A DNA stretch of 27,059 nt, from positions 1 to 27,059 of the IMG/VR virus record IMGVR_UViG_3300013010_000055; one strand, given 5' to 3'. A program made the position numbers and the translations under genes. Source of the stretch: a virus. The notes beneath the pieces were generated by a model that made no database searches, was not told where the DNA came from, and was given only the letters and a program-made list of their open reading frames with translations. Positions 1,111 through 27,059 of this stretch are shown here, piece after piece. The first letter of the stretch is position 1; the number at the start of each line of letters is the position of its first letter.

Positions 1111-1800
1111 ATGAAAAGATTAACTAAGAAATATCTAAAAGAATTAGTAGATGAAAATGTAGGGGGCATGAGTGATGCATCTAAGATGCCTTGGAAATCA
1201 TGGTCCCTCAACTCTGACGATTGTAAGCTAGGCTCGGTACTTAAATTCACAGAGGGTACTGTCTGCTCTAAATGCTACGCCGATAAGGGTAACTATAATT
1301 ATCCTAATGTTGTAGCAGCACAGGATAAAAGATTATCCTCCATATCTACTAGCCTAAAAGCTAGGGCTAAGTGGGCTGATACTTTCGTTGAGTATTTCAA
1401 GGGACACCTAGAGCTAGGACTACCAGAAGAGCAGCGATACTTTAGGTGGCTAGACTCTGGTGATATCCAGACAGTAGAAATGCTGGAGGATATATCATAC
1501 ATAGCATCACGTGTACCAGAGATACAGTTCTGGCTACCCACTAGAGAGACATCTATCTTTAAGCAGTGGTTTCTAGAAAATAATCCACCAGATAATCTAT
1601 GTATTAGATTCTCTGCTAATGTGATAGGCAAGCCTGTTACCCATGGCTTGGCTATACTACACAAGAATCTCTCAGAATCTGCTGTCGATTATACTGACAA
1701 AGATTATGAGGAATGTCCTGCACCTAAGCAGGGTAACTCGTGCGGTGACTGCCGCAAATGCTGGGATCCTACCGTTAAGGTAGGGTACTTACTTCACTAA
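1111..1800 (+). CDS. GP88-family Cys-rich phage protein, putative Fe-S protein, 229 aa
   Basis: It resembles the phage 'gene product 88' family. The N-terminal signature SWSLNSDDCKLGS is followed by EGTVCSKCYADKGNY, then RWLDSGDIQ and FWLPTRE. Cysteines are at 38, 52 and 55 (the CxxCYA portion resembles radical-SAM-like phage proteins such as Gp37/Gp68-DUF5131), with a second cluster C202-x8-C211-x2-C214-x2-C217 near the C-terminus. The second cluster looks like an iron-sulfur or zinc site. Start: ATG preceded by AGGGAGA at 7-nt spacing, 2 nt after the upstream stop. The biochemical role of the family is not known to me. Radical-SAM or nucleic-acid-modifying activity is inference from the Cys pattern. 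It sits with a DUF932-type gene just downstream, a pairing consistent with early accessory functions. Confidence 0.75.
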   Translation: MKRLTKKYLKELVDENVGGMSDASKMPWKSWSLNSDDCKLGSVLKFTEGTVCSKCYADKGNYNYPNVVAAQDKRLSSISTSLKARAKWADTFVEYFKGHLELGLPEEQRYFRWLDSGDIQTVEMLEDISYIASRVPEIQFWLPTRETSIFKQWFLENNPPDNLCIRFSANVIGKPVTHGLAILHKNLSESAVDYTDKDYEECPAPKQGNSCGDCRKCWDPTVKVGYLLH

Positions 1801-10933: not shown

Positions 10934-11273
10934 AGAGTTCAAGACATGCACCAAGTGCAAGACCGAGTACCTAATCGAAGAGTTCTATACTCGTAGCGAC
11001 AGGCCGGGGTGGCGCGTACCACAGTGCCGCTTTTGTGTGACAGCCGCCGTACGTACAACACAAGAAGAGCGGAGGGTCAGGATCAAAGAAGCTTACGAAT
11101 CAGGTAAACTTACTGTGATCACAGAGAAATGGTGTAAGGTATGTGACGAAGTCAAACCATCCGACCAGTTCTATATGAAGTGGGACTCCAAAGATTACCT
11201 CAGTCACTTCTGCAAAGAGTGCCACAAGTATGACTGCAAGATACGAGCACGAATAAAGAAAGCTAATGCATGA
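10926..11273 (+). CDS. Double zinc-ribbon protein, 115 aa
   Basis: Start chosen at 10926 (MTEEFKTCTKCK), which overlaps the end of the previous gene by 8 nt; an in-frame ATG at 10890 adds 12 residues of poor character. Two similar halves each hold a CxxC...CxxC set: CTKC with CRFC, and CKVC with CKEC. Each half has a pattern C.kC...k....Fy.......CrfC. These zinc ribbons resemble the N-terminal part of phage endonuclease VII/HNH-like proteins, but no nuclease motif follows. It may bind nucleic acid or protein partners. It lies directly before the large terminase, whose ATG overlaps its last codons. Function unknown. Confidence 0.7.
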   Translation: MTEEFKTCTKCKTEYLIEEFYTRSDRPGWRVPQCRFCVTAAVRTTQEERRVRIKEAYESGKLTVITEKWCKVCDEVKPSDQFYMKWDSKDYLSHFCKECHKYDCKIRARIKKANA

Positions 11274-12906
11274 GATCCCCGAAGAACTCAAGGACTTCCG
11301 CAACTTCCTCTACCTTACGTGGAAACACTTGGGCCTTCCTGACCCTACTCCTGTCCAGTATGACATCGCTGATTATCTCCAGCACGGGCCACGCCGACGC
11401 ATGGTTCAAGCTTTCCGAGGTGTTGGTAAGTCTTGGATTACTTCTGCCTTTGGTCTATGGAATCTATACATGGACCCAGACACAAAGATACTCGTAGTCT
11501 CCGCATCCAAATCCCGCGCCGATGATTTCTCTTCCTTCTGTCACCGTCTCATTCGAGAGATGCCCGTCCTACAACACCTCGCTCCCGACGAAGCACAGCG
11601 ATCATCCAAGATCGCATGGGATGTCGGTCCAGCTAGGGCCGCACACTCTCCTTCTTGCAAGTCTGTTGGTATTACTGGGCAGCTTACTGGTAGTCGTGCC
11701 AACCTTATTATTGCAGATGATGTCGAGGTTCCCGGCAACAGTGCTACGGTGGGTGCGCGGTCTAAGCTGGCAGAATCTACGAAAGAATTCGAAGCAATCA
11801 TCGTCCCTGATACTGGAGAAATAGTTTACCTTGGAACTCCCCAATCACAAGAATCGATTTATACCGAACTCCCCGAACGAGGGTATGATGTTAGAATCTA
11901 TCCTGCAAGAATGCCAGAAGATCCGGGAGTATATGGAGGTAGACTTGCCGATTATGTTTCTTCACTTGACGGACAAGCAGGACAGCCTACAGACCCAGAC
12001 CGATTCTCTGATGAAGAGCTTATTGAAAGGGAAGCTTCCTATGGACGGACTGGATTCCAACTACAATACCAACTAGACGTACGCCTATCAGATCTCTCCC
12101 GCCACCCGCTGCGCCTCACTGATCTCATTGTCATGGACTGTGACTCTGAGGTTGCACCAGAACGTGTAGTGTGGCAGAGCTCAGACGTATGGGAAGACCT
12201 ACCCAACACAGGATTTTCGCGTGATAAGTACTGCCGACCTTTATCAATCCATGGTGACATGGTCCCTTACACAGGATCTATCCTTACCGTGGACCCAAGT
12301 GGTAGAGGAACTGATGAAACCTCCTATTGTGTACTTAAGTATCTCAATGGTTTTCTCTATCTACTTGATTGGGGCGGGACCACCCAAGGATATACGGACG
12401 CAACGATGCGTCTCTTGGCGACAAAGGCTAAAGAATACAAAGTCAATGTCATCGTCACCGAAAGTAACTACGGTGGAGGAATGTTCACCGAGCTTCTTAA
12501 GCCGCATCTCCGTGAGATATACCCGGTTACTGTCGAGGAAACGACCGCTAAGGGGATGAAGGAAGCTCGCATGGCCGACACCCTAGAGCCTGTGATGAAC
12601 CAGCACAGACTCGTTGTGAACGCTCAGGCTATACGTAAGGACTACGAGGAAACGCTAGACCGCTCCCCCGACACAGCCGTACAGTATTCCCTGCCCCACC
12701 AGATGAGCAGACTCAGCCGGGACAGAGGCTGCCTAGATCACGATGATAAGCTAGATGCCCTGACCATGGCAGTTGCCTATTGGACAGAGCAAATGGCTAG
12801 AGATGCACGAGATGCAATCAACGAAAGAAAGGACGAACTCCTACAGAAGGAGCTAGACTCAATCATGGAAAAAGGGAACGAACCCCCGACGTGGTTTAAT
12901 GTTTAA
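11266..12906 (+). CDS. Terminase large subunit (T7 gp19-type), 546 aa
   Basis: Packaging motor ATPase plus nuclease. Close in pattern to T7 gp19 along its length: MVQAFRGVGKSWITSAF (Walker A, K55), KILVVSASKSRAD, SVGITGQLTGSRANLIIADDVEVPGNSAT (Walker B ADD), YLGTPQSQESIY (coupling), then nuclease ILTVDPSGRGTDETSY, VTESNYGGGMF and CLDHDDKLDALTMAVAYW carrying the acidic metal ligands. Length 546 versus 586 aa. Similarity to gp19 predicts T7-like packaging with direct terminal repeats (inference). It is on the plus strand, opposite to the late structural genes and to its presumed small subunit, and its stop overlaps the minus-strand stop by 4 bp. Confidence 0.95.
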   Translation: MHEIPEELKDFRNFLYLTWKHLGLPDPTPVQYDIADYLQHGPRRRMVQAFRGVGKSWITSAFGLWNLYMDPDTKILVVSASKSRADDFSSFCHRLIREMPVLQHLAPDEAQRSSKIAWDVGPARAAHSPSCKSVGITGQLTGSRANLIIADDVEVPGNSATVGARSKLAESTKEFEAIIVPDTGEIVYLGTPQSQESIYTELPERGYDVRIYPARMPEDPGVYGGRLADYVSSLDGQAGQPTDPDRFSDEELIEREASYGRTGFQLQYQLDVRLSDLSRHPLRLTDLIVMDCDSEVAPERVVWQSSDVWEDLPNTGFSRDKYCRPLSIHGDMVPYTGSILTVDPSGRGTDETSYCVLKYLNGFLYLLDWGGTTQGYTDATMRLLATKAKEYKVNVIVTESNYGGGMFTELLKPHLREIYPVTVEETTAKGMKEARMADTLEPVMNQHRLVVNAQAIRKDYEETLDRSPDTAVQYSLPHQMSRLSRDRGCLDHDDKLDALTMAVAYWTEQMARDARDAINERKDELLQKELDSIMEKGNEPPTWFNV

Positions 12907-13124
12907 TTATCTGTACCAGTCTTGAATGGCAGCACCTTAGACAGATCAGCAATGGGACTTTCATCCACATCCTCTACATTTACCCCATGATCACGGAGCA
13001 TTTGCCTAGCTACATTGATATCCTGAGACGATGCCTCACCAGATTCGAGGCGTTCAATGAGTCGATCAACTGTGAGATCCCACAGTCGGCTGAGTTTTTC
13101 TTCTTTCATGGTTAATGGATTCAT
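12903..13124 (-). CDS. Probable terminase small subunit, 73 aa
   Basis: Short, helical, acidic-tailed protein: MKEEKLSRLWDLTVDRLIERLESGEASSQDINVARQMLRDHGVNV. The pattern L...LI.RL.SGEAS..DIN.AR..L.D.G resembles small terminase (T7 gp18-like) proteins of podoviruses, which recognise DNA and stimulate the large subunit. That function fits its place beside the large terminase gene, but it is on the opposite strand. A start at 13124 (MNPLTMKEEK) or 13109 is possible, neither with a Shine-Dalgarno; a TTG at 13169 was rejected. It is the only minus-strand gene among plus-strand genes. A transcript reading leftward past 14661 could reach it. Confidence 0.65.
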   Translation of the reverse strand: MNPLTMKEEKLSRLWDLTVDRLIERLESGEASSQDINVARQMLRDHGVNVEDVDESPIADLSKVLPFKTGTDN

Positions 13125-13168
13125 TAGATAGTGACGATAGTATACCTGCCCCGGATGAGGCAGTGACA

Positions 13169-13384
13169 ATGGCTAACCTTATTATGACAAATAAGGTTCT
13201 GGAGGATTTGTTAGATGAGTTTGGGGAGAGGCTACTACTAGCCAAGAGATTAATAGCGTTATGTGAGCAGCTAGAATCGCTTGCTCAAGTTCGTGTACTA
13301 AACCACGCGATCTTTTCCCTTCTTTCCCAACCACTTAAGACAGAGTTCTTGGCCGACTGGCTGGACTCAGATGACGATGACTGA
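13169..13384 (+). CDS. Small acidic helical protein, 71 aa
   Basis: Unrecognised. Helical body (VLEDLLDEFGERLLLAKRLIALCEQLESLAQVRVLNHAIF) and a very acidic tail WLDSDDDD. Start 13169 is preferred: GAGG at 13157-13160 lies about 8 nt upstream. The longer form from ATG 13115 (89 aa) lacks a Shine-Dalgarno and would overlap the divergent small-terminase start. Its end overlaps the metallophosphoesterase start (13371) by 14 nt, so the two are probably co-translated. The region 13125-13168 between the divergent genes is the only candidate for a local bidirectional promoter. Confidence 0.55.
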   Translation: MANLIMTNKVLEDLLDEFGERLLLAKRLIALCEQLESLAQVRVLNHAIFSLLSQPLKTEFLADWLDSDDDD

Positions 13385-14363
13385 CATCCCCTTATTAGAA
13401 AAAGAAATACGCCGCCTGTCCAAGGAGCTTGAGAACCGTGAGGCTATCGAGACTATTATCTTGCGGCGTGCAGACGAGGCACTAAAGAACTTTAGGTGGA
13501 CACCACCAAAGAGAAAAGAAAGAGACAAGCGCAAGCTGCACTCAGAGACTGCTGTCATTCATATCAGTGACACCCAGATCGGCAAGCTTACCTCTACGTT
13601 TGACAGCAAGGTAGCCAAGCAGCGCATGAAGAAGCTGGCAGAGCAGACACTTAAGGTTGTCGAGACTCGTCGGTCTGGTGCTAAGATAGATAACGCAGTC
13701 ATTATGATTGGTGGTGATATCGTAGAGGGCGAGACAATCTTTGCTCACCAGCCTTGGGTAGTTGACTCAGACTTATGGGATCAAGCCATCAAAGTCGCCC
13801 CAAAGATACTCTCTGATTTTATCATCGAAATGTCTAGCGCGTTCCGCAGCATAACGGTCAGTGCTGTCCCCGGTAACCACGGCAGGAGCCAGCCCAAGAA
13901 TGCTGGAGCTTCTCCGCGCACCAACTTCGACATGATTGCTACGGTTGTGACGAGGCTTATGGTAACGAGCGTGATCAAAGACTCCCGCATTACGTGGGAC
14001 GTAGACCATGATTCTTTTTATCGTGTCGTTAATGCGGAAGGACATAACTTACTCCTTGTTCATGGCGATCAAATCTCAGGGGGAGGTGGTCTTGGAGGCT
14101 ACCCGCTCACAGGACTTGCTCGAAAGGTAGCAGGATGGAGCGGCAGTCTCCCTGAAGAGTGGGGCTACATCTTTCTTGGACACTTCCACAGACCAATGTC
14201 TGGTGTAGTTCAAGATAAGATCTTCTTTGCTAACGGCACTATCGAGAGTGACAACGACTGGGCTCTTGAAGTTATCGGTGAGTCAGGAAGACCCTGCCAA
14301 CGAGTAGTCTTCTTTAACAAGAAGCATGGCCCTGTTGCTGACAGCTTGATCTGGCTTGACTGA
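13371..14363 (+). CDS. Calcineurin-like metallophosphoesterase, 330 aa
   Basis: Metal-dependent phosphoesterase or nuclease (SbcD/Mre11-like superfamily). After an N-terminal coiled-coil segment (residues ~5-40) and a basic linker (PPKRKERDKRKLH), motifs come in order: HISDTQIG (D67), MIGGDIVEG (D116), VPGNHGR (N169, H170), LLLVHGDQ (H231) and IFLGHFHRP (H271, H273). The usual first motif D-x-H is D-T-Q here (Q69), a substitution at a metal ligand; the other ligands are intact, so activity is still plausible. Length 330 aa suits a phosphoesterase domain plus extension. ATG at 13371 or 13377. It may process DNA ends or cleave phosphodiesters during replication or packaging (inference). Confidence 0.85.
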   Translation: MTMTDIPLLEKEIRRLSKELENREAIETIILRRADEALKNFRWTPPKRKERDKRKLHSETAVIHISDTQIGKLTSTFDSKVAKQRMKKLAEQTLKVVETRRSGAKIDNAVIMIGGDIVEGETIFAHQPWVVDSDLWDQAIKVAPKILSDFIIEMSSAFRSITVSAVPGNHGRSQPKNAGASPRTNFDMIATVVTRLMVTSVIKDSRITWDVDHDSFYRVVNAEGHNLLLVHGDQISGGGGLGGYPLTGLARKVAGWSGSLPEEWGYIFLGHFHRPMSGVVQDKIFFANGTIESDNDWALEVIGESGRPCQRVVFFNKKHGPVADSLIWLD

Positions 14364-14671
14364 TGCAGGTTAGCTGGAAAGAAACTCTGGAAAACCTACG
14401 AGTAAGCGAGCCGTTACCATTCCCAGTAACAGTGTCAAGACGTAAGCTATCCAACGGGTTACAGGGTTATTGTAAATTGTTAATGAACGGCACTACGAAG
14501 ATAAGCATCGTAGTGGATAAGAAACTATCGGAAGGTATGCAAGCAGATGTGCTAGTGCATGAGTGGGCACACGGTCTACTCACGCCACTAGTCCATGAGT
14601 ATACCGAGCACGGTAGTTTGTGGGGTATGATGTACGCACGTTGCTACAGAGCCGCATACATTAGTAGCTAG
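14363..14671 (+). CDS. SprT-like zinc metallopeptidase, 102 aa
   Basis: Minimal zincin. LVHEWAHGLL gives the HExxH zinc site (H66, E67, H70), and EHGSLWGMMYARCY provides the third ligand His83 with the H.S.WG motif typical of small phage SprT/DUF45-like peptidases. Beta strands SISIVVDKKL-like lie before it (TTKISIVVDKKLSEG). At 102 aa it is only the catalytic core. It follows the phosphoesterase by a 1-nt overlap. Substrate unknown; the SprT fold in cells acts on DNA-protein crosslinks, but for phage versions this is not established. The stop codon overlaps the end of the convergent minus gene by 11 nt. Confidence 0.8.
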   Translation: MQVSWKETLENLRVSEPLPFPVTVSRRKLSNGLQGYCKLLMNGTTKISIVVDKKLSEGMQADVLVHEWAHGLLTPLVHEYTEHGSLWGMMYARCYRAAYISS

Positions 14672-14912: not shown

Positions 14913-15267
14913 CACTCTTCTTTGGTTTTTCTTCTTTACCGTCAACGATGCTCTTAAGAATCGCAGCCAGCGATGTCACCACGAGCGTGATAAGCCCCGT
15001 GATTGTGCCTAAAGATTCTGCTGGCAAATACAAGCACGAAAACAGGAAAATTGTCACCATGAGAGTCATGTACAATCCTGCCCATGTGCTCAGGTGAAGC
15101 GAAGCAAGCTCGGAAGCTGACTGCTTTGCCTTCATCTCTGCCATGCGAGCCTTAGCCTCGACTTCACGAAGCATTACCTCCGCTTGCGTATCAATCACAT
15201 TCGCTCTGCGCGTCTGATCTGCTTCTGTCATTGGTCGAATCCTTTTAAGTAGCCAGTCTAGTGCCAT
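14902..15267 (-). CDS. Holin candidate, two TM segments, 121 aa
   Basis: Likely holin that permeabilises the inner membrane. Basic N-terminus (DWLLKRIRP), an Ala/Glu-rich helix (residues ~25-55, QAEVMLREVEAKARMAEMKAKQ), then two transmembrane segments: ~62-82 (WAGLYMTLMVTIFLFSCLYL) and ~86-107 (LGTITGLITLVVTSLAAILKSIV). The tail is charged (KEEKPKKSDGE). A two-TM layout with charged ends fits class II or related holins. The ATG lies within the end of the u-spanin gene (10-nt overlap). An alternative reading is a virion membrane protein; cluster context favours holin. Confidence 0.65.
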   Translation of the reverse strand: MALDWLLKRIRPMTEADQTRRANVIDTQAEVMLREVEAKARMAEMKAKQSASELASLHLSTWAGLYMTLMVTIFLFSCLYLPAESLGTITGLITLVVTSLAAILKSIVDGKEEKPKKSDGE

Positions 15268-15680
15268 TGGTTGTTACGCCGAGCCTTCCAAGCCACAGCT
15301 AAAACAAAAATAAGAAGTATAAATGCTGCAATCAGAAGCACCCATTTAGGAGGAGGCTCTACCCCGTCACGGATGTTCATTTTTATTTCTGGCTCCGCAA
15401 TTTCAGCCTCTGCTTCTAAGGCTGCTGTACGGATCTCTGCTCGTTCTTCTACGGACATGCGTTCATGCCCTATTTCAGGGAGATGCCACGTTAGAGCGGC
15501 GTACGTGCTCTCTGAGGCTCCCTCATACTTACCATCTAATTGGCCTAGTTTGTTTTCACCGTAGTGATCGCCAGAACTAGCCCCAAATGTAAGCTCATCA
15601 GGAAGTAGGGTGTTGCCTACCTCTGTTGCGGTACAAGAAACCAACAACAGAGGCAGGACAACGAAAAAAGATTTTACCAT
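15258..15680 (-). CDS. Unimolecular spanin (u-spanin) candidate, 140 aa
   Basis: The last step of lysis in Gram-negative hosts disrupts the outer membrane. This protein has both anchors needed in one chain: an N-terminal lipoprotein signal (MVKSFFVVLPLLLVSC, lipobox LVSC with Cys16) and a C-terminal transmembrane helix (~113-131, WVLLIAAFILLIFVLAVAW) followed by a basic cytoplasmic tail (KARRNNQWH). Between them lies a ~95-residue periplasmic segment with a helical, acidic part (VEERAEIRTAALEAEAEIAEPE). This is the T1 gp11-type u-spanin layout, in contrast to the two-gene T7 gp18.5/18.7 spanins. It is next to the holin candidate. ATG 15680 overlaps the upstream stop by 7 nt. Confidence 0.8.
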   Translation of the reverse strand: MVKSFFVVLPLLLVSCTATEVGNTLLPDELTFGASSGDHYGENKLGQLDGKYEGASESTYAALTWHLPEIGHERMSVEERAEIRTAALEAEAEIAEPEIKMNIRDGVEPPPKWVLLIAAFILLIFVLAVAWKARRNNQWH

Positions 15681-16235: not shown

Positions 16236-19200
16236 TTATTTTTCTAATTGTCGGACAACGGGTTGAAGAAGAGGGTGCTTTAACCAACCAAACACACGTT
16301 TGGTCCGCGCCCAATCATGGTATTCAAAGTCTCGCTGCCCAGTGCCTATGCCAATAGCGGCTCGACCAGACCCAGCAATATCGCCAAGCCATGAGAACAA
16401 CGGGACTTGTTCAAAAGTTGAATCAGCTAGTCCGTAACGGTGCGTATTACCGTACGTGTCAACACCAAGAGTCAAACTTAGTGCTGGGTTAGCTACATCC
16501 ATTAGCGTTCCAGAGAACGGGGAGCGTGATATTGCTCCGATAGCCAAACGAGTTGGGCTCATGCGTTCTTTTAATTTGCGGCGACCGTCAGCGCTATCTT
16601 CGTAAGCAAAGAGGTTACTTAACATGTAAGTAAACAAACCGCCCATAGCACTTGTTGTAAACATCATTGCTGCACGACCGTCAGCGGCTGTTACGTTTCT
16701 TGTCAAGACGTTACGGTGCGCTGAAATACCAAAGCGTCTAAACTGAAGAAGGATATGTCCAAGAGCGCGGTGCAGCCCTGACTTCGCAAACCACTCAGGA
16801 AGGTCAGTCCTATCTCCTCGCGTTACGTTTGCCAAGACTTCAGAGTACATAGCGTTCATAAACTTAGCTGCAACAATCTGATCATCCCACTCGTCAAGGT
16901 TTAAACTCAAGGAGTCCAAGCCATTTTCCCCAGTGGTGTTTCGCATGTGCTTTCTAAGCTGCGCTGTCATAGCGTTCCAATCATCAAGCGTTATACCCAT
17001 CTGAGAGAGCCGTGCCTGATTAGGTACATCACCCTTTAGCATGGCTTGCACGTTTGCGTACGTGTTGATTCGCATAGACATTTCTTCTGTCCATTGAGTA
17101 ATCGGGTTTAGACCTGACAACTCAGCCGTTATGTTTGTTGCGCCTTTAAGCAACCTGCGTGCGTCAGCAGCAAAGTTAGATCCCGGCATACCTTCTTCAA
17201 GGTGTTGCGACATAAAGTCTAGCTTGCCAAAGCGCCTTGCTGAAAGACCCATGCCCTGCGCCTCAAGCATAAACTTAATGTCTTTGCGCGAGATAGGTAT
17301 TTCACCAGTACTGACTCTACGAAGCACTCCGTTTGCCTTAAGCATGTTGGCAATCCCCCGCCCAAACAGCGTAGGAATAACTTCACTTAGTGCCGCTCTT
17401 CCAAAAGTAGATCCATAACCAAAGGAGAACACGGCATCTTTAAACATTGATGCATTCTCACCAAACTTAACTGAGTCTTGGAAACCCCGTCCTCGCGCCG
17501 TACGGATAACCATGTCAAGTTGTTCTGTTATGTGGCGAACATCAAGACCTCGTGCTCTAGCGTCATCAACAATAAACGACTTGATATCATCAAGGTTGGT
17601 GAACAGTCCCGGCCTTCCAAGTTTGTTGTTAAATCGTTTAATTGTTTCTGCAACAAGTGTGCTGCTAATAACTTCCCAGTTGTACCTATCCGTAAGGTTA
17701 AACATGTTTGATTCAAACAGTTCACGGATATCTACGTTACGCTGGCCTGACTTACCAACTAGCTCAAGGTGCGCTGTTTCGTCCATAGCAATGCGATGCA
17801 GTGCACGCCCCGGTCCTTTTTCTGACTGGGCAAAGAAAGCCGCCATTTCATCTGCTTGCTCAGGATCTATCCCAAACTCTTTAACAAGCTTATCTGCAAA
17901 CTTAGATGGATCTCGTGTAGTACGCGGATCGTTAAGCCAAGTCATCCCAGACTTTGCTTGGCCTGACTTGGTTAGGTACATCTTTGCAAACTTGTCTGCG
18001 TTCTCTTTGTTTAACTTAGGGTTCCCAAGCCGAAGAGCATGCGAAAGAAGTTTTGTTACGTTCTTTTCACCAAACTCCAATAATAATTTTTGATACTTGG
18101 TTGTTGAGAAAATACGAGGGACGTAGTTAGGGTTGTCAGGGATATCCTTCCAACGCTCAGGGTCATTCTTTTTAAGCCACTTAAGAATGTCTCGATAATG
18201 ATCTTGATGTAACAACGCAGCATCGCGTACCAACTTATCAGAGTCGCTTAGTTGCCTTCTAGGAATTGACATCATTTTTGGATCACCAAGATGTCGCGTA
18301 ATCTGCTCACCAAACTCTTCCTGAGCAAGGCCAGCAAGGTGTTTTGCAAAGCCCATTTTATTTAACTTGCGCCACTTGTGGTAGATGTCCCACGACTCTA
18401 AACGAGCTTTGGCAAACCGACCTGTTCTAAGCTGTTGGCGTGTAGTTTCAATACCTAAACGGTTAATGCCGTCAGCAGCATCTACAACAGGTTTGATTGT
18501 TCCATCAGCAGACTGCATGCCAGCCTGATTACCATATACGTCAAACCCTAAAAAGCGCATCGCTCCGCTTACACTTGACTGCGCTCTTGTTTTAAGAGAG
18601 TTCCATACCTTGTCCCCAGTGCCAAGTACATTGCCAAGAATCCGAGGGCTAACGCCAACGTCGCCAAAAGCTTCTTCAGCCGTAATGCCAGCTTCGTCTA
18701 AAGCTTTTTGCACATCATCAAATGCTCCGGGATCCTGTTGCCCGTGATCTGCATTGTTCTTTCTACGTGTAAGCGCATCATGTCGTGTAGTTAACTCATC
18801 GAGTTGATTCATTAACTGATTCGGTGCGGTAACCTCACCTGTGCGTTTGTTGTAGATAAAGAAAACATCCTGTGCTCCTGTGTTAAAGATCTTCTTAGCA
18901 GGAGGAACAAAGTCTGAGTCAACACGGCCACTAATAACCTCACCACGACCGTCTAGTACAACGATATCTTCGTCGGTAAGGCTGGTGTCTTTCTTTGTCT
19001 TTTTACCAACAACCTTTCCGTCAGGTGTTTTAAGCTCGCGTGCTTTTGCTTTTGTAGGTTTAACTTCTAGATCATCAAGCGCAGCTTTCAAAGCTTGCCA
19101 AACAGGAAGACGCCTAAGTGCGGGTATATCGGCTAGGCGCTCAAGGGCGGCTCGACCGACCTCTGCCTTCCCTCTGACCGCCTTCCGGGCTTGGTTGAGC

Positions 19201-22200
19201 GTTGCTACCTCTTCAGAAAGATCTTGCTCTGTGCGTGCAAGTTGTTGCTCTCTCCATGCTCGAACATCGTCAGCTTGCTTCTGACGTTTATTTCTTCTGA
19301 TAATTAACTGCGCTTCTTCAATGGCAGCAGACTTTGTTCGTGCTTGTAGTTTGATTGAGTTACGTGAAGAACCATGCAAGTCAAGCTCAAAAACCTTCTT
19401 GCTTCCTCGCGTTAACGGAGCACCTGTCTCATCACTTACACGAATAACAACAAACGTATCTTCGATTGTGCCAGTTATCTCAGTGGCAACTGAGTTCTTG
19501 CCTTCTTGTTTTTTTAGATCGCTTAGTGTTTTAGTTAGCTGCGCTGACAGTGCGTCTACTTCCGCACGAGCCGCATCGTAAGCTTCTACACGGATCGGAT
19601 CAGGCGCAATGGGCTCAGGCTCAGGTTTAATCTTACCGCCCTTTGTGGGGTGTACACGCTTGGGTCGGATAGGCTCAGGCTTGGGCTCAGGCTTAGTCCG
19701 CTTTACCAAGCGTTCTTTTCTAGGTTTTGTTGTATTGCCAGTATCAGGATCAACAATAGGTCCCGGCTCGGTAATAGGTTCAGACTTACCCGAAGGAACT
19801 TTTCTAGGTGGCTGGACGCCTTCACCAATCTTTTTACCAATCACTTCGGCAGCCTTATGGCCGTCCAGCAATGACTGCATAAGTTCGTCTGACGCCCAGT
19901 CCATGTCATCAAGAACTTCGACTACACCTTTAATGCCATTTTGATCCATTAACTGACCAAGCACTGCTTGAAATTCAGGTGCGGTAAACTCAGTTTCTTT
20001 GACACCACCAAGCAGAATCTTAAGTTGCGCTTCTACAGCGGCGTCAACTTCGTGTTTTGTTCGGGGCATTGTAGAAGTAAGGTTACCTGCTTTTACATCC
20101 TCCGTAGCTGTTTTAATAAACTTATCCCGCTGCCTCAGCAGTGCCGTAGCTAACTTACTTCCTTTTTTAACATTAGGTCTAATGCCTAGAGTAAGTGCTG
20201 CAACAACATCAAGAGTTTGTATTACTCCCGGAGATACGTCAGACATTTCCTTAAGTGTGCCAGTTATCTTGTCCAACATCTTACCCCAAAAAGTGTTAAC
20301 AGCTACTTCAGCTTTTGCCTCGGCTGCTAAAAACTTTTTACTACGCGATGCTGCACGCATCCTGCGCATAACAAACGTAGACATTAACTGAGCACCAAAC
20401 TCAGTTGTCATAGAGACGTAGTGACCAACATCTCGTGTCCCCATAACAGACCGAACAAACTCTGGGTACGAATCACCAAGATCTGATTTAATTTCGTTAG
20501 CTGTTTTTACAAGTAAACTTTGCGTTTCAGTCCCCACGTACCTTGCACCACCCTGAAGTGTGATTGTCTTAGGCTTTGCTTTTCGCCCACTAGGGAGCAA
20601 TATTTGTTCGCTTGATACGCCATCTAAAATATGACCAAGCTCGTGAAGCAAAACAGACAAAGGCGATCTTTCAGCGGGAGATGTTCTTCCAGAAGTCATT
20701 AATGCGCGTTTGCTTAACTCGATAACTTTTCTATCAACTCTGTAGTTCTGTGTCTTAGGAATACCAACACCACGACCGGGAGCGCTAGGATTAATGAAAC
20801 CTCTCGCTGCCCCAAATGTTCGCTCGGTACCGCCAGTTACCAGTTGTCTTGGACTTACTGCAAAATTAACTAAGTATGGGTGAGCGTTTAGATTGACTGT
20901 CTTTAACGCCATGTCAAGCAGTTCAACATCTGTGTCGCTCAACATGCCGTCTTTCCACAGCTTGTGTATAGCCTTTAAGTAGTTGCGTTTTTCAGGATGT
21001 AGGCTCCAGACATCATCTTGAAATAACTTACGCGCTTTTTTAAGATCAGACCAAGACTTGTAAGCTGTTGGAGGGACATGCTCATAGTCAGGTATAGGAG
21101 TAACGCCTTCTGCTGGCGCGTCCGGGGTTTCTTTGGCTGTCGGAAAATCAAAATCAGTTTGTTTAATGTCTTTAAATTGACCGTAACCGTAGCCGCGTTC
21201 GTTTTTAAGGACTTTAACGTCAAGGTCTTCCAGAAGCCCAGTTAGGTCAAACCCAACTGCCTCTCCTGTCTTGGGATCAATACGCTGACCGCCTTTAATA
21301 AGTACAGGAACAAGACCATCGCCTAGCTCATCCATAGCCGCCACACGGTGCCGCCCATCGTGCCCTGTTACTTCGTATGCACCTTCACGACTTGGCTTAC
21401 CTTTTGATGCAGCCTCGCGTGACACAGTTAAGGTGGGCAGTTCGTCCATTTTTGTTCCTGCCTCCATAAGATCACGGACACTATCTACAGACTGCCCCTT
21501 GTCTCCTATAGTGCCTTCACGCAGAGGAACAGTAAAAGAACCAAACTCATCAGGAGTCATGTAGACAAGGTGTACATTACTCTCTGGGTCATTTGATAAC
21601 CGCCGTGCTTCTTCGAGAGCTTCATCAGCAAACCTAATGTCACCAGATCGTCCTATACTCTCCGAAGGAGCGGCAACTTCTCGCTTTAAGCTGTCGCGTT
21701 TGTCCGTTGCTATGCGAAGTCTGCGCTTAAGGTCATTAATAAAATTACGTGCGTTTGTAATTTCAGGCGTATCATTAACGCGAACTTGTGTGTTTTTAAG
21801 CTTAGACTTTGTGACTCTTGGGGGAAGAAGGATCTCAACATCCTTCTGACCAACAGTCCTTTGTCTGCCCGGAGTTAAAACATCCGCACCCTTTACGTCA
21901 GGACCGCCTGTAAGAATAGGGCGATCTCCCTCAACTCCACGGATCTCTCCAAAGTCTACATCCATGACATCTTCGCCATCAGCGTTTTTGTACACTCGTG
22001 TGACTACGCCAATCTCGTGCGTCTTTGGATCGTAGATTAGATTGCCGCTACGCTTCGGGCTGTCAAGTGCAGCTTGCTTTGCTTCACGCTCTGCTTGCAG
22101 AACCTTATCTCTTGCCGCATTAAGTTTTTTGCGTACTCGTTTTTGTTGTCCTCTTGTCAAGCGCTCTAACGCTGACGTAGACAACTTAGCTAAAGACTCA

Positions 22201-24293
22201 GGGTTGTGATCAGCTAAAAACTTAATGTCTTCGTATGTTAAGCCATCAATGTAGTCTTTGCCGCCAGAGCGTCTGTAGTACACATCACGCATAAACTCCT
22301 TGAAAGCTTCTTCTGCTTCAAGATCAATAGCCCCTTGCTTTACAGAACGTAGCTCGGCTTCAGGCATCCCCTCGTAAACATCTTCCATGCGCCGCAGAGC
22401 AGCTTTTGATGTGAGGCTTTTACGCAGTGTGCTTACGGCAGCTTTGTCTATGTTGGCAGAGAAACGCTGTAGTCTCTCAGGCAACCACCGACGCATGTAC
22501 GCATCACCAAAGATGTTTCGAGTCTTGCGGGATAACGCACGGATCGTATCACCAAGGTGCTCAGGGTAGCGCGTAGCTCCTTGTCCATCGACCTCTGCGC
22601 CGTCCGGGTCAATGTGTTGCCGCAAGTCTGCCTTGTCAATCTCTCGTGAAGACGGCTTAGGATACTTACGCATAATGTGGTCAGGGCGACCGTTAAATAA
22701 TGCGTCAACATCATCAGCAATAACTTCCTGAGAGTCTGACCAAGCTTTGTTAAATTTTGCTTCTATTGTTTCTGGGTGGATAGGTGTATCAAGTCGTGAT
22801 GCTTGTGCGCCTTCTTGGATAGTGATTGAGTCACCGTCAATCTGAAGACGGCCTGTGTCATCTAGTGCACCGTGCATAGTCCTAACACCATCACGAATAA
22901 CAACACGCTTATCGTGATGAACAACCATCCCCATGTCATCGCCTAGATCAAAAGCAATGCTCTTAAAGTTGCGGAAACGATCACCAATAAAAGAAATAGA
23001 TCCGTAGCTTTTTCTTGTTGGTTTTGGTGAGACGCGCCGAGGTCCGGGGGGCGGGACTACTCCACTAACAGGCTTAGGCTGTGCGCGATCTTGCTTGAGC
23101 GCCTCGTTGAGCCTCTCAAATGTCTCTAAATAAGCGTCACCAGCGGCATCTCCAGCTTCTTTACCCTTGTCTCTGGTTACATTTTCCCTGATTGTGTCCG
23201 AAATCTTCTTGTTGCGGCCTTGCTGGTTTGCAGTCATCCCGCCTTGCCTGAAGTTTTTGCGAGCACTTCTTTGATGCTTGGCTATCCCTTCGTCAACTGA
23301 GTCTGGAAAGTTAGCCTCATCCTCTGTTGCAAGGCGGTTAAACTTGTCCTTAATAGGCTCTCTAGTTGGTTTTGGTGAGACGCGTCGTACGTTTATAGAG
23401 CCATCACCGGAGATGGCGGTCGCCTGTGCGCCAGTGGTGTCCCCTAAAACTCCAAAGGCTGCCTTTCTAAAGTCCATGTAGTTGGACTGGAGGTGGTCAG
23501 GAACCCACTCGAAAAACATTTCATGATCATCAAAAACTGACTTCCACCAGTTTGATCCTTTTGAAGCGTCTCGATACCCCTGCTCAGTAGCCGCCTGTCG
23601 TGTGTTTGCTCCGTCGATTACTTGGCTTGAGTCTCCAATACGAGTACGAGCAAGCGATGATAGACCACCTGCTAAGACTCCTGAGATAGCTCCCACGGTA
23701 AGGATATCTCCTTCAGACATCAGGGGATCTCCGGGCGCACGGGCAGCGGCAAACGCTGCGCCTTCCCCCGCTGCTAATGCGCCAACATTCCTAAACCGTT
23801 GTAGACGTGTAAACTTAGCAGCATTGGCGGCAGCTTTATACACAGGAGCGCCAGCCGCATTAACCAGTAAAGCTTCTGGCTGAAAGAAACCAGAAACAAT
23901 GTATGCGCCCATTACTCCAGCAGTACCGTACTTTTCAGAAAAGATCTGCGACGCTTCTTGCGTTTTAAGTGTGTGATCTCGAATAGCTTGGGCATGAGCT
24001 TCAGACTTAGCTGTATAGATATGCTCATCAGCACTCGCTGGAAGACCATCTGAAAAGCGTGCAAACGTCTCTTCATCCATGACAAAGTCAGGATCATCAA
24101 CAAAGTTTTGCGGTGCGTAGTCAGAAAAGTACGGAGTAAACGTACTTGTTTCAGAAAATGCGTGTGCAAAAAGATCACCACCCGAAGCATTTCGGATCTT
24201 ACTTTGCGTTCGTGCAGCATCACGCTCTCTTTGCCGCTCTTCTTCGCGTGTCGGGTGCTGCGGCAGCGAGCTAAAAAAGTCTTCGTTACTCAC
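16236..24293 (-). CDS. Giant polyvalent / internal virion ejection protein, 2685 aa
   Basis: Probable virion protein injected with the DNA, in the T7 gp16 role but about twice its length. Visible parts: Gly/Ala-rich hydrophobic helices at ~120-215; two SPKPTR linkers; a ParB-like GHDGRHRVAAM motif (G977-R983); a zincin LLHELGHILDG (H1217, E1218, H1221) with probable third ligand E1298 in YVSMTTEFGA; a Pro/Lys-rich linker (~1490-1565, KPEPKPEPIRPKR); charged coiled coil ~1640-1720; and a long helical C-terminus (~1900-2685) with LLQFRRFGISAHRN and AMMFTTSAMGGLFTYML, resembling LPD38-type polyvalent-protein regions. The multi-enzyme layout fits phage polyvalent proteins that act on host targets on entry. 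GTG start, 8-nt overlap with the gene upstream. The frame is uninterrupted. Confidence 0.85.
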   Translation of the reverse strand: MSNEDFFSSLPQHPTREEERQRERDAARTQSKIRNASGGDLFAHAFSETSTFTPYFSDYAPQNFVDDPDFVMDEETFARFSDGLPASADEHIYTAKSEAHAQAIRDHTLKTQEASQIFSEKYGTAGVMGAYIVSGFFQPEALLVNAAGAPVYKAAANAAKFTRLQRFRNVGALAAGEGAAFAAARAPGDPLMSEGDILTVGAISGVLAGGLSSLARTRIGDSSQVIDGANTRQAATEQGYRDASKGSNWWKSVFDDHEMFFEWVPDHLQSNYMDFRKAAFGVLGDTTGAQATAISGDGSINVRRVSPKPTREPIKDKFNRLATEDEANFPDSVDEGIAKHQRSARKNFRQGGMTANQQGRNKKISDTIRENVTRDKGKEAGDAAGDAYLETFERLNEALKQDRAQPKPVSGVVPPPGPRRVSPKPTRKSYGSISFIGDRFRNFKSIAFDLGDDMGMVVHHDKRVVIRDGVRTMHGALDDTGRLQIDGDSITIQEGAQASRLDTPIHPETIEAKFNKAWSDSQEVIADDVDALFNGRPDHIMRKYPKPSSREIDKADLRQHIDPDGAEVDGQGATRYPEHLGDTIRALSRKTRNIFGDAYMRRWLPERLQRFSANIDKAAVSTLRKSLTSKAALRRMEDVYEGMPEAELRSVKQGAIDLEAEEAFKEFMRDVYYRRSGGKDYIDGLTYEDIKFLADHNPESLAKLSTSALERLTRGQQKRVRKKLNAARDKVLQAEREAKQAALDSPKRSGNLIYDPKTHEIGVVTRVYKNADGEDVMDVDFGEIRGVEGDRPILTGGPDVKGADVLTPGRQRTVGQKDVEILLPPRVTKSKLKNTQVRVNDTPEITNARNFINDLKRRLRIATDKRDSLKREVAAPSESIGRSGDIRFADEALEEARRLSNDPESNVHLVYMTPDEFGSFTVPLREGTIGDKGQSVDSVRDLMEAGTKMDELPTLTVSREAASKGKPSREGAYEVTGHDGRHRVAAMDELGDGLVPVLIKGGQRIDPKTGEAVGFDLTGLLEDLDVKVLKNERGYGYGQFKDIKQTDFDFPTAKETPDAPAEGVTPIPDYEHVPPTAYKSWSDLKKARKLFQDDVWSLHPEKRNYLKAIHKLWKDGMLSDTDVELLDMALKTVNLNAHPYLVNFAVSPRQLVTGGTERTFGAARGFINPSAPGRGVGIPKTQNYRVDRKVIELSKRALMTSGRTSPAERSPLSVLLHELGHILDGVSSEQILLPSGRKAKPKTITLQGGARYVGTETQSLLVKTANEIKSDLGDSYPEFVRSVMGTRDVGHYVSMTTEFGAQLMSTFVMRRMRAASRSKKFLAAEAKAEVAVNTFWGKMLDKITGTLKEMSDVSPGVIQTLDVVAALTLGIRPNVKKGSKLATALLRQRDKFIKTATEDVKAGNLTSTMPRTKHEVDAAVEAQLKILLGGVKETEFTAPEFQAVLGQLMDQNGIKGVVEVLDDMDWASDELMQSLLDGHKAAEVIGKKIGEGVQPPRKVPSGKSEPITEPGPIVDPDTGNTTKPRKERLVKRTKPEPKPEPIRPKRVHPTKGGKIKPEPEPIAPDPIRVEAYDAARAEVDALSAQLTKTLSDLKKQEGKNSVATEITGTIEDTFVVIRVSDETGAPLTRGSKKVFELDLHGSSRNSIKLQARTKSAAIEEAQLIIRRNKRQKQADDVRAWREQQLARTEQDLSEEVATLNQARKAVRGKAEVGRAALERLADIPALRRLPVWQALKAALDDLEVKPTKAKARELKTPDGKVVGKKTKKDTSLTDEDIVVLDGRGEVISGRVDSDFVPPAKKIFNTGAQDVFFIYNKRTGEVTAPNQLMNQLDELTTRHDALTRRKNNADHGQQDPGAFDDVQKALDEAGITAEEAFGDVGVSPRILGNVLGTGDKVWNSLKTRAQSSVSGAMRFLGFDVYGNQAGMQSADGTIKPVVDAADGINRLGIETTRQQLRTGRFAKARLESWDIYHKWRKLNKMGFAKHLAGLAQEEFGEQITRHLGDPKMMSIPRRQLSDSDKLVRDAALLHQDHYRDILKWLKKNDPERWKDIPDNPNYVPRIFSTTKYQKLLLEFGEKNVTKLLSHALRLGNPKLNKENADKFAKMYLTKSGQAKSGMTWLNDPRTTRDPSKFADKLVKEFGIDPEQADEMAAFFAQSEKGPGRALHRIAMDETAHLELVGKSGQRNVDIRELFESNMFNLTDRYNWEVISSTLVAETIKRFNNKLGRPGLFTNLDDIKSFIVDDARARGLDVRHITEQLDMVIRTARGRGFQDSVKFGENASMFKDAVFSFGYGSTFGRAALSEVIPTLFGRGIANMLKANGVLRRVSTGEIPISRKDIKFMLEAQGMGLSARRFGKLDFMSQHLEEGMPGSNFAADARRLLKGATNITAELSGLNPITQWTEEMSMRINTYANVQAMLKGDVPNQARLSQMGITLDDWNAMTAQLRKHMRNTTGENGLDSLSLNLDEWDDQIVAAKFMNAMYSEVLANVTRGDRTDLPEWFAKSGLHRALGHILLQFRRFGISAHRNVLTRNVTAADGRAAMMFTTSAMGGLFTYMLSNLFAYEDSADGRRKLKERMSPTRLAIGAISRSPFSGTLMDVANPALSLTLGVDTYGNTHRYGLADSTFEQVPLFSWLGDIAGSGRAAIGIGTGQRDFEYHDWARTKRVFGWLKHPLLQPVVRQLEK
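23017..23039 (-). repeat. Short direct repeat in giant gene, copy B (VSPKPTR linker)
   Basis: This 23-bp segment differs from 23365-23387 at one base. Both encode RRVSPKPTR in frame, flanking a charged segment of ~110 residues. Confidence 0.85.
23365..23387 (-). repeat. Short direct repeat in giant gene, copy A (VSPKPTR linker)
   Basis: Partner of 23017-23039 with one mismatch. The repeat is a basic, proline-containing linker, followed here by EP and in the other copy by KS. Confidence 0.85.
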
Positions 24294-27059
24294 CGAAAGC
24301 CCCCTGTGCTAGTTCTTGTAGTGCCATTGTGCCCCTAGCGTGCGTTACTTGGAACCCCCGCGCGAGATTTTTAAAACGCCCCCCAAAATCGAGGGAGAAG
24401 GGGCTACTAGCAATGTACGCGTCCAGTACTGCCGAGGGTATTCCGCTGTAGTCACGTTCTGCAAGAGCTTTTCCTAATGGACTCACAACATCAGAGATAT
24501 AACCACCCACGCTGTCTGACCAAGCACGTATTACTCCCGCCTCTTCTTTTGTAATGTCAGCAGGAAACCAAGAGTCACGGCGAGTACGGTCTTGATTTAA
24601 AGCATCATGTGCCAAGTCTGAATTAGCAAGCTTTTCATATCTTTTGTTTTTTACGTCTCCTCGGTAGTTTTTAATAATCTCCGTAGCACGATGATCAGCA
24701 ATAATGTGAAGATATCCGTTTTGATCTATAGTGCTAATAGAGCCGTCTTCATTTAGTACGACAGAAGCAGCCCTTGCCCCTGCGTCATCAACAGGTGCAT
24801 CAATCGCTACATCAATGCCAAGCGCTTCAGCATACTCTAAGATAGCATCGGGCTCTCGTTTAAACAGCCCTTTAAAAGATACTGGTTCATCGTATGATAC
24901 ACCAAGTATGTTACCAGCAGCTCCTTTAAGATCACCTAAAAAAGTAGTTTTTGGTCTAAATACTTTATAAGGAACATCAGTGTCAAGTCTGTGCTGTAAC
25001 CGATCATCTTCTCCAAACTTGAATAAGTCTTCTATATTAGCACCCATGCTGCCAAGCATATTTAGACTTGAAGGGGTTGAGTAGTCATTCATAATAAGAA
25101 GATGATCTAGATCAATGCCCGCACCTGAAAACTTCTGCTCTAACAATTCTAGTTGGACTTCATTATGCATCTTGCCAACATGTTGCGCAAAATCCTCCAA
25201 GGACTCACCCTCACTTGTAAAGGCGACGTTGCTTAAGTTCAAGTCGTTTTCGTTACGCTCGATACCCTCTAAGAATTCGTTAAGTTTTTCTGCGGCTTCT
25301 TCAGGCCCGTACCGTGTACGTAACTCATCGTGCTTTTGTGTAGCTGCATTGTTAAGGCGTATCATTGTGTCTTCACTAAGCCCCTCCTCTGAAAACAATC
25401 CGTTAACAGAATCGGCAATAAATTCGGGAAGCACAGAATCTCTTTGAGCTTGTAAGTTTTTGTACTTTTCTGTACCTCCTGCTTGAAGTATCTCAAACAA
25501 TACTTTGTCAGGAGATTTTGATGGTTCGCTTTCTAGAGCTTGGTGCACTTCCTCAAGAAGAACGTATGCAGGATCAGCACTCCCAAAGTCTCCAACACCG
25601 CCTTGGCGCATACGCTTGTAAGTTTCAGCAGCTTGAACAAAGTTAGGGTCTACATCATCAATGGTATCAGGAGTGCTGGTAACAAAGCTCCGCATTTGCT
25701 GCGCAAGCATCCACTTGTATTGACGCGGAACGTGGCCGCTAGAGGCATGAAACAAAATCAATTCGTCAACTACGTTTGCTTGCACACCTTGCGATAGTTT
25801 CTTAGCCACTCTTTGCTGAATTTCGGCCATAAATTGAGGATCTAAACTGTTGCGCTGCGCAGTAGTTAAAGAACTCGTTGCCGAAAGATAGCTACCACCA
25901 GTAGTAACAGACGTAAACGCAGAGTTAATAGCAAATTGATTAGCTTGCATTTCTGCGTATTTTTTGTCTTGTTCTAGCTGAGACTTAACAAAAGAAAGCA
26001 TCTCTCTAGAATATGTAGGACCAAGCGTCAGGTAATAATCTACAATTTCTTGTGCTTGTGTTTTTCTTTTTGTGTTTGCCTCATCAAAAGACATAGTCCC
26101 GTTAAGTACAGCCGTGTCAAGATTTACAAGAGCTAGTTTAAGATCTCCAAGTTTTCCACTGTATTCAATTAGTTGAGCTTTTGTGTGAGACAACTCTGCG
26201 GCTTTCCGATCATCGTCAACACCATCACCTAAAAATGCTTTAACTTTTTTTGTGTCGGCCCACTTGGTAGTGCGTGGCGTAGCTGGGTCAGTAGATTTAG
26301 GTCCAGTCAGTATACTCTGCAAAAGTGTGTTAGCACTCTTTGCGTGCGTCGGTGATGTTAGAAGACCTTTAATTCCAGAAAGTATAGCATCCTGAAACTC
26401 AGGGGTCCATAAAGCTCCATCGGCTAACGCATCAATGGTTGTCTGTACGCCGCCTATTATATCCTTTATTTCATCGTCATCTGCGGCGTTAGTTATGTCA
26501 ACAATAGCAGCCGCAATAGATTCAACGTCCGCGTCGGTTCGTCTTGCTAAAGCTCGTCGGTGCGCGAGGCTAGTTTCTTTATCAACAACTTCTTCAAAGT
26601 AAGTGTTTGCTTTGTTGTGAAAAGCCCCCTCCCAGTAATGTGACTGTGTCCCACTAGCGTCAATTACAGTTTGCCTCTTGGCTTCAAAGAACTTTGTAAA
26701 CCCGTCAGGCTCTGTACCTCTTGAATCGTTTGGGTCGTTTGCGATTGCTTTCCATTCGTTACGCGCTTCACGGATTAGTGCTGTAGCTTGTTTATCTCCG
26801 TCACGTTTCATAGCTCCAACAGCAACCCAAGGGTTCTGCATAGGATCTATATCTCCGTCCTTTACGGCATCCTTGTAGTTTTTTTGTGACGCTGCTTGCA
26901 GTGCATCACCTTCTGCCAAAGCTTTTTCAATGTTTTGTTTGTTTGCTACCTGCTGCGCACTAGAGATACTTTGAGATAAACCAGCAAAACCTCTTAAAAA
27001 AGCTTGTGCTCCAAGGTCTTGCGGTGCTTGCCCACTAAGGCCACCAACCTGCTGTTGTA
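24286..27059 (-). CDS. Large internal virion protein, 5'-truncated by window edge, at least 923 aa
   Basis: The frame stays open from the first possible start (a TTG at 26919) through to the window end, with 46 more codons (QQQVGGLSGQAPQDLGAQAF...) before 27059. The gene therefore begins outside and 26919 is not the start. The visible part is helical and charged, with few Cys and no enzyme motif that I recognise. Examples are LIREARNEWKAIANDPND, a DDxxD-rich region, and a C-terminal globular-looking part VVLNEDGSISTIDQNGYLHIIADH. Its place immediately before the giant ejection protein matches T7 gp15 preceding gp16, so an ejectosome component is the best guess. It ends FGE, with the stop inside the next gene's start. 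Confidence 0.75.
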   Translation of the reverse strand, partial: QQQVGGLSGQAPQDLGAQAFLRGFAGLSQSISSAQQVANKQNIEKALAEGDALQAASQKNYKDAVKDGDIDPMQNPWVAVGAMKRDGDKQATALIREARNEWKAIANDPNDSRGTEPDGFTKFFEAKRQTVIDASGTQSHYWEGAFHNKANTYFEEVVDKETSLAHRRALARRTDADVESIAAAIVDITNAADDDEIKDIIGGVQTTIDALADGALWTPEFQDAILSGIKGLLTSPTHAKSANTLLQSILTGPKSTDPATPRTTKWADTKKVKAFLGDGVDDDRKAAELSHTKAQLIEYSGKLGDLKLALVNLDTAVLNGTMSFDEANTKRKTQAQEIVDYYLTLGPTYSREMLSFVKSQLEQDKKYAEMQANQFAINSAFTSVTTGGSYLSATSSLTTAQRNSLDPQFMAEIQQRVAKKLSQGVQANVVDELILFHASSGHVPRQYKWMLAQQMRSFVTSTPDTIDDVDPNFVQAAETYKRMRQGGVGDFGSADPAYVLLEEVHQALESEPSKSPDKVLFEILQAGGTEKYKNLQAQRDSVLPEFIADSVNGLFSEEGLSEDTMIRLNNAATQKHDELRTRYGPEEAAEKLNEFLEGIERNENDLNLSNVAFTSEGESLEDFAQHVGKMHNEVQLELLEQKFSGAGIDLDHLLIMNDYSTPSSLNMLGSMGANIEDLFKFGEDDRLQHRLDTDVPYKVFRPKTTFLGDLKGAAGNILGVSYDEPVSFKGLFKREPDAILEYAEALGIDVAIDAPVDDAGARAASVVLNEDGSISTIDQNGYLHIIADHRATEIIKNYRGDVKNKRYEKLANSDLAHDALNQDRTRRDSWFPADITKEEAGVIRAWSDSVGGYISDVVSPLGKALAERDYSGIPSAVLDAYIASSPFSLDFGGRFKNLARGFQVTHARGTMALQELAQGAFGE

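Follow-up and report, generated by a model that had tools for sequence, protein, structure and literature searches.

A T7 gp16-type ejectosome protein of 2,685 residues with a polyvalent-type cassette inserted at the TMH I / gp16-C junction

Main finding

The virus record analysed here (27,059 bases, hereafter the window) encodes a protein of 2,685 residues which, judged from its sequence, is a homologue of T7 gp16, the inner-membrane protein of the DNA ejectosome, and which is larger than any gp16 examined here or found reviewed (609-1,337 aa in the review, PMC8954989). The gp16 homology is split by a single large insert, located at a junction where zincin-like domains are also found in the gp16s of other T7-family phages, and this insert contains a ParB/Srx-type module and a probable zincin. 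What is new here is that a T7 gp16 carries a polyvalent-type cassette, and that it does so at an insertion junction which recurs. The preferred reading, to which a probability of about 60% is given, is that the protein serves as the gp16 of a T7-like DNA ejectosome and carries enzyme cargo in addition. The original prediction had described an injected protein with a ParB-type module, and these two elements are retained; the gp16 identity, the single insert shared by the two motifs and the zincins of related gp16s had all been missed.

Phage and gene neighbourhood

The source of the window is, judging by its gene content, its late operon and its terminase matches, a T7-family phage. Indeed, (i) a single-subunit RNA polymerase, a gp2.5-like SSB, a primase-helicase, a DNA polymerase, an exonuclease and a terminase large subunit are encoded on the plus strand, (ii) the terminase shares 50-56% identity with those of Autographiviridae, many of these phages being from marine or soil bacteria, and (iii) a T7-type late operon is present. 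The last point was established with an IMG/VR contig of 32,968 bases, identical over the whole protein, which is a longer copy and supplies the upstream genes missing from the window. Its late genes are ordered portal, scaffold, capsid, tail A, tail B, gp13, gp14, gp15 and gp16; PHROG matches were obtained for the T7-type connector, the scaffold, the major capsid protein, two tail proteins and gp13, and gp14 and gp15 were assigned from position and size. On the basis of gene order and PHROG matches, the gene of the 2,685-aa protein is the last internal virion gene of this operon (Table 1). The gp15-like protein showed no family match and no match to other gp15s.

Several other genes of the window were annotated. 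The terminase small subunit (12903-13169, minus strand; PF11123, E 7e-13) and the large subunit (11266-12906, plus strand) are encoded on opposite strands, tail to tail with a 4-base overlap, an arrangement that differs from T7. The protein encoded at 15258-15680 (minus strand) resembles a unimolecular spanin in having a lipobox-like LLVSC at its N-terminal end and a hydrophobic stretch at its C-terminal end, and a GP88 family protein is encoded at 1111-1800 (plus strand; PF17338, E 7.5e-26). A second HExxH protein of 102 aa (14363-14671, plus strand; HEWAH...HG) lies directly 3' of an exonuclease-type gene and has a weak SprT-like match (PF10263, E 8e-4, under its cutoff).

Table 1. Features of the 2,685-aa protein and of the adjacent gene (positions in the window)
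Feature	Position	Strand	Basis
Entire protein (2,685 aa), ejectosome protein of T7 gp16 type interrupted by a large insert	16236..24293	-	Open frame; both ends match PHROG 342
Residues 14-219, gp16 N-terminal scaffold (molecular tape end + TMH I region)	23637..24254	-	phrog_342 201-404, E 1.3e-14
Residues 220-1772, insert at TMH I / gp16-C junction	18978..23636	-	Gap between phrog_342 positions 404 and 428
Residues 402-430, Pro-rich linker ending RRVSPKPTR	23004..23090	-	Composition
Residues 892-1004, ParB/Srx-type GH[DE]GRHR module	21282..21620	-	Family HMM E 2.4e-18 (partly expected, sequences collected by motif); AF2; Foldseek; SbnI profile matches
GHDGRHR motif, residues 977-983, strand-helix turn	21345..21365	-	Sequence + predicted fold
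Residues ~1127-1345, putative zincin domain	20259..20915	-	Motif arrangement only
HELGH, residues 1217-1221; Asp1224 three residues past second His	20631..20645	-	Sequence
Glu1298, candidate third zinc ligand (YVSMTTEFGAQLMS)	20400..20402	-	Local context
Residues 1490-1570, Pro/Lys/Arg/Glu-rich linker, pI 9.9	19584..19826	-	Composition
Residues 1773-2684, gp16-C + TMH II region	16242..18977	-	phrog_342 428-1223, E 1.5e-70
gp15-like tunnel protein	24286..27059	-	Synteny, size; 938 aa in longer copy, 5' end cut in window

The gp16 scaffold

The uninterrupted 8-kb frame described earlier was found at exactly the predicted coordinates, with a GTG start, 2,685 codons and no internal stop. Both ends of the protein match the T7 gp16 family, PHROG 342 ('internal virion protein with endolysin domain'), and a separate HMM built from eleven gp16s recovers the same two blocks, the N-terminal one with an i-E of 1e-15. 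Residues 32-216 align to T7 gp16 224-409, and the gp16 homology of the C-terminal block starts at about 1773-1805. A clear T7 gp16 homologue within a T7-type late operon agrees with the proposal of an injected virion protein, whose incorporation into the virion, ejection and topology would be those of T7 by analogy; the channel role also suggested is one that has been proposed for T7 gp16 itself only, and would be transferred here in the same way. The two N-terminal membrane-like stretches (126-144 and 191-209) have only a mild hydrophobic character (Kyte-Doolittle 1.2-1.3), yet they fall where T7 gp16 has its TMH I region.

The N-terminal lytic transglycosylase of gp16 was not found in the 2,685-aa protein: the first 200 positions of phrog_342, which include it, have no counterpart, and there is neither an alignment to positions 1-110 of the gp16 HMM nor a transglycosylase motif. 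This region is likewise missing from the gp16 of LKD16, phiKDA1, phiNV3 and Vibrio BD1, and is therefore not defining for the gp16 family as a whole. The insert could be a replacement for the missing transglycosylase, acting on the cell wall in the periplasm with the zincin as a peptidoglycan endopeptidase. In line with this, gp16, gp15, gp14 and tail B have no transglycosylase motif and gp15 has no lysozyme match. However, the insert follows TMH I and is expected on the cytoplasmic side; Pradovirus and a Limnohabitans phage retain the N-terminal transglycosylase region alongside a zincin; and phiKMV-type phages are annotated with a lysozyme motif on gp15, so that loss of the transglycosylase from gp16 is common. 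A role in cell-wall degradation is thus considered very improbable. Neither a transglycosylase nor an endolysin was recognised in gp14, gp15, gp16, tail B or the scanned small genes near gp16, in a contig that is incomplete.

The insert and its junction

In T7 gp16, TMH I comprises residues 243-410 and the cytoplasmic gp16-C residues 411-1118 (PMC8954989). At the corresponding junction of the 2,685-aa protein, 23 profile positions are absent and about 1,550 residues are present; the insertion point is equivalent to T7 gp16 residue ~409-410, and the insert therefore starts at the TMH I / gp16-C boundary. GHDGRHR and HELGH both lie inside it.

For two thirds of the insert, no domain can be assigned. 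When the whole protein and ten overlapping pieces were searched against Pfam, PHROG and PDB sequences, nothing but gp16 was returned, and weak matches to RICH, GCV_T, DUF3584, cytidine deaminase and glucosyltransferase were dismissed as chance. Neither Pfam nor PHROGs has a match to residues 220-880 or 1010-1770, phage records contain none of significance, and scans of IMG/VR and GTDB for relatives of the insert gave the identical contig or nothing. Of the segments originally held to resemble nothing known, most are thus confirmed as such, but the end of the one placed at 1570-1900 belongs to the gp16 homology. Proline linkers, also noted earlier, are real and are found at about 391-440, 1041-1080 and 1481-1580. 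A 27-base direct repeat (23013-23039 / 23361-23387, 93%) encodes RRVSPKPTR twice, from residues 303 and 419; the two copies flank a very basic segment and may reflect the gain or exchange of a domain at linkers.

The ParB/Srx-type module

The pattern GHDGRHRAAA gave no match. The broader pattern GH[DE]GRHR retrieved 120 stretches in IMG/VR, with many off-frame false matches filtered out, and is present in many giant phage ORFs of 600 to more than 2,500 residues, which share the upstream signature MxPxxFLxLA. Companion domains of the module in these giant proteins include ART-PolyVal, LPD39, DarB-like and virion RNA polymerase-like regions. An HMM of the module, from which the 2,685-aa protein was left out, matches residues 892-1004 well beyond the motif, with an E-value of 2.4e-18 that is in part expected since its sequences were collected by the motif.

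Three further lines of evidence were obtained: (i) an AlphaFold model of the module computed with 31 sequences has a pLDDT of 81 and a pTM of 0.76; (ii) the top 30 Foldseek matches in the PDB all belong to the ParB/Srx superfamily (PadC, sulfiredoxin, Noc, ParB, Osa, free serine kinase, SbnI), with modest scores (best E 4e-3, TM-scores <=0.53), and viral fold matches include proteins named ParB/Sulfiredoxin; (iii) an independent profile search matches SbnI (E 0.0067), which is also among the fold matches. In the predicted model, GHDGRHR closes a strand (973-979) and opens a helix (981-989), its Arg being placed at the strand-helix turn of the active-site pocket. Pfam superfamily models gave no match to the 2,685-aa protein at their cutoffs; among the 31 aligned module members, ParB_N was matched by one and PFIN by two (E 0.02-0.06).

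Profile and predicted fold thus agree with the ParB-type domain of the original prediction, GHDGRHR being inside a predicted ParB/Srx fold. The module is assigned with good confidence to the ParB/Srx superfamily, and it is this superfamily membership that is claimed, not membership of the DdrB-like subfamily. The DdrB-like ParB lineage is characterised by an Asp/Asn at the end of strand 2 and by an extra helix with a conserved Tyr. The module is probably a nucleotide- or DNA-acting enzyme, a function that is putative.

The insert could also be structural filler or a decayed remnant, which adds bulk to the core or keeps gp16-C at a distance from the membrane, with vestigial motifs. Large stretches without a family and zincin flanks without detectable similarity would fit such an origin, but HELGH, GHDGRHR and the Glu context are intact, the 8 kb are free of stops, and ParB/Srx positions outside the search motif are kept, among them P117 and the nearly invariant P74, L76, G112 and V118 (alignment A2). 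Filler or decay is consequently regarded as quite improbable.

The candidate zincin

HELGH and a Glu 77 residues beyond its second His were both located as predicted. A GF.NP segment precedes HELGH, and Glu1298, within TTEFGAQLMS, lies in surroundings similar to those of the equivalent residue in other gp16 zincins, NLSNEKEFITYGLT and FLSDIYEFTAGLYS among them. An Asp three residues past HExxH is a feature of a common phage-type zincin clade (Iyer et al. 2017, PMC5512222).

Profile searches and structure prediction count against a zincin. No Pfam zincin family matched up to an E-value of 5, and AlphaFold on the single sequence of the region failed to produce a fold (pLDDT 38). With two zincin models, shuffled flanks scored at least as well as the real zincin flanks; a model of HELGHxLD built on 84 viral stretches could not tell the 2,685-aa protein apart from shuffled flanks. 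Given that no zincin profile matches, the domain is termed a probable zincin and is not filed as a member of a family.

HELGH could be a chance motif in an unrelated helical segment, the ParB/Srx module alone being real. In 3,000 shuffles of the protein, some HExxH arose in 4.8%, and HELGH and GH[DE]GRHR in none; a bare HExxH is therefore weak evidence, and the full HELGH and GHDGRHR are not chance. The frequency of the bare motif, together with the missing profile and fold support, speaks for coincidence. Against it stand the count of zero for HELGH, the agreement of the third-ligand context and of the interval with the zincins of other gp16s, and the fact that other giant phage proteins also have HELGHxLD after a G-x-Y/F segment. 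Coincidence is accordingly considered improbable. The zincin claim stays plausible through its motif and candidate third-ligand context, but profile searches and fold prediction did not add to it; from motif, context and position, it is very likely that residues ~1127-1345 contain a true zincin, which would bind zinc and be catalytic.

The tape-measure protein of L176 (5077-11343, minus strand), another virion protein that may carry a zincin, has an embedded HELGHLFD; with its GLGIP...HELGHLFD arrangement and similar spacing it was tried as a homologue and rejected, the flanks not being significant. ORF24 of Xanthomonas citri phage CP2 (L156:1789-9225), a protein of 2,478 residues whose gene precedes the tail fiber gene, contains two HExxH (926 HEVLH, 1265 HEMGH) and does not match the gp16 HMM used.

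Zincin-like domains in other gp16 proteins

A query zincin from another giant phage protein unexpectedly matched the gp16s of Xanthomonas phages, and further searches found the domain in the gp16s of phiKMV-like, KP34-like, Pradovirus, Bordetella and Limnohabitans phages. HExxH with a conserved Glu is present in the same interval in the 12 other Autographiviridae gp16s that were read for it, four of which are from IMG/VR relatives of f30-Xaj. The Glu lies 47-69 residues past the second His in all 12 and has a common context, e.g. LANTDELISYGLT, LSNEKEFITYGLT and LSDIYEFTAGLYS. Between positions 336 and 500 of the gp16 HMM, gp16s without a zincin have 109-221 residues (n=10, T7 included), those with a zincin 241-556 (n=12) and the 2,685-aa protein 1,778; these counts are approximate, f30-Xaj and PAS7 having been measured from an earlier HMM position and the value of 241, that of PM75, being probably too low because the aligner set the end of TMH I beyond HExxH. 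A HERLH at residue 559 of T7 gp16 does not have the matching context and was read as chance.

An hhalign comparison of the zincin domain of the 2,685-aa protein with the gp16 zincins aligned 13 columns around the motif with a probability of 3%, so that homology is not demonstrable by this means; a scan with the gp16 of YIMV22061 found nothing. In the open-access literature searched, no paper was found on zincins at the TMH I / gp16-C junction of gp16. That this insertion junction recurs in several genera is the finding of wider reach, and it seems undescribed in that literature.

Proposed role of the cassette

In T7, gp16 is attached through its N-terminal part to the periplasmic gp15 tunnel and inserts into the inner membrane with TMH I; a hub in the cytoplasm is proposed for gp16-C, whose state after ejection is partly modelled. 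The cassette of about 1,550 residues sits between TMH I and gp16-C and, with a topology as in T7, would therefore be the first large segment past TMH I to reach the cytoplasm; it would emerge on the cytoplasmic face during ejectosome assembly, before most of the genome. It contains the ParB/Srx module, the probable zincin and several unassigned segments joined by Pro-rich linkers, as in polyvalent proteins, and would most likely, during the initial minutes of infection, act on host components or, to release the cargo, on its own chain. The originally suggested cleavage of a host defence protein is a speculative form of the former. Iyer et al. 2017 (PMC5512222) discuss an early effector role for polyvalent proteins and a processing role for their zincins. 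The nearest working analogue is N4 vRNAP, an ejected multi-domain enzyme of 3,500 residues with a HExxH domain (PMC12633501).

The zincin might instead act in cis only, cutting its own chain in the head or after ejection and so freeing cargo from the membrane-anchored ejectosome or permitting the oversized protein to be packaged, with no host target. Self-processing was proposed for the zincins of polyvalent proteins by Iyer et al. 2017, phage P1 DdrB is cut before packaging (PMC5512222), and the long Pro-rich linkers that flank the zincin region on both sides could be cut sites; N4 vRNAP, however, has a zincin and is nevertheless packaged uncut (PMC5512222). A purely self-directed protease is considered rather unlikely.

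A broader reading of the enzyme-cargo proposal, put forward tentatively, is that gp16s of the T7 family have, at the TMH I / gp16-C junction, a general cargo port, an evolved loading site for enzymes that are threaded into the cytoplasm before the genome as part of the ejectosome; most of the gp16 cargo observed would then be one small zincin-like domain, expanded in this phage to a multi-domain polyvalent cassette. The usual view of T7 gp16 is that of a membrane protein that handles DNA. If the cargo-port reading is true, many T7-like phages deliver enzymes before their own genes are read, as N4 delivers its RNA polymerase, and this idea could be tested by single point mutations in cultured phages (phiKMV-type, Pradovirus, KP34-type).

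Comparison with known systems

The 2,685-aa protein shares with T7 gp16 (1,318 aa) a homologous TMH I region and gp16-C, the same place in the late operon and the same expected role in DNA ejection, but is twice as long, has no N-terminal transglycosylase and carries its insert at T7 residue ~410. With the gp16s of Pradovirus f30-Xaj, phiKMV-like LKD16 (gp37), KP34-like phiKDA1, Bordetella phage BB8 and Limnohabitans phage YIMV22061 it shares HExxH...E in the same interval. In these five gp16s, however, the interval is 3-7 times shorter, no GH[DE]GRHR module was seen, and HExxHAAT is the prevailing form of the motif, followed by the Glu at +47 to +69, whereas the 2,685-aa protein has HELGHILD with the Glu at +77.

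Polyvalent proteins (Iyer et al. 2017; P1 DdrB, N4 vRNAP) are likewise giant and virion-associated and combine zincin, ParB/Srx and unknown domains. They are defined by at least two unrelated enzymatic domains within a single polypeptide of a mobile element, for which the ParB/Srx module is supported here and the zincin is indicated by its motif only. In contrast to these proteins, no Pfam model of the polyvalent set matched the 2,685-aa protein, and the carrier of the domains is a T7 gp16.
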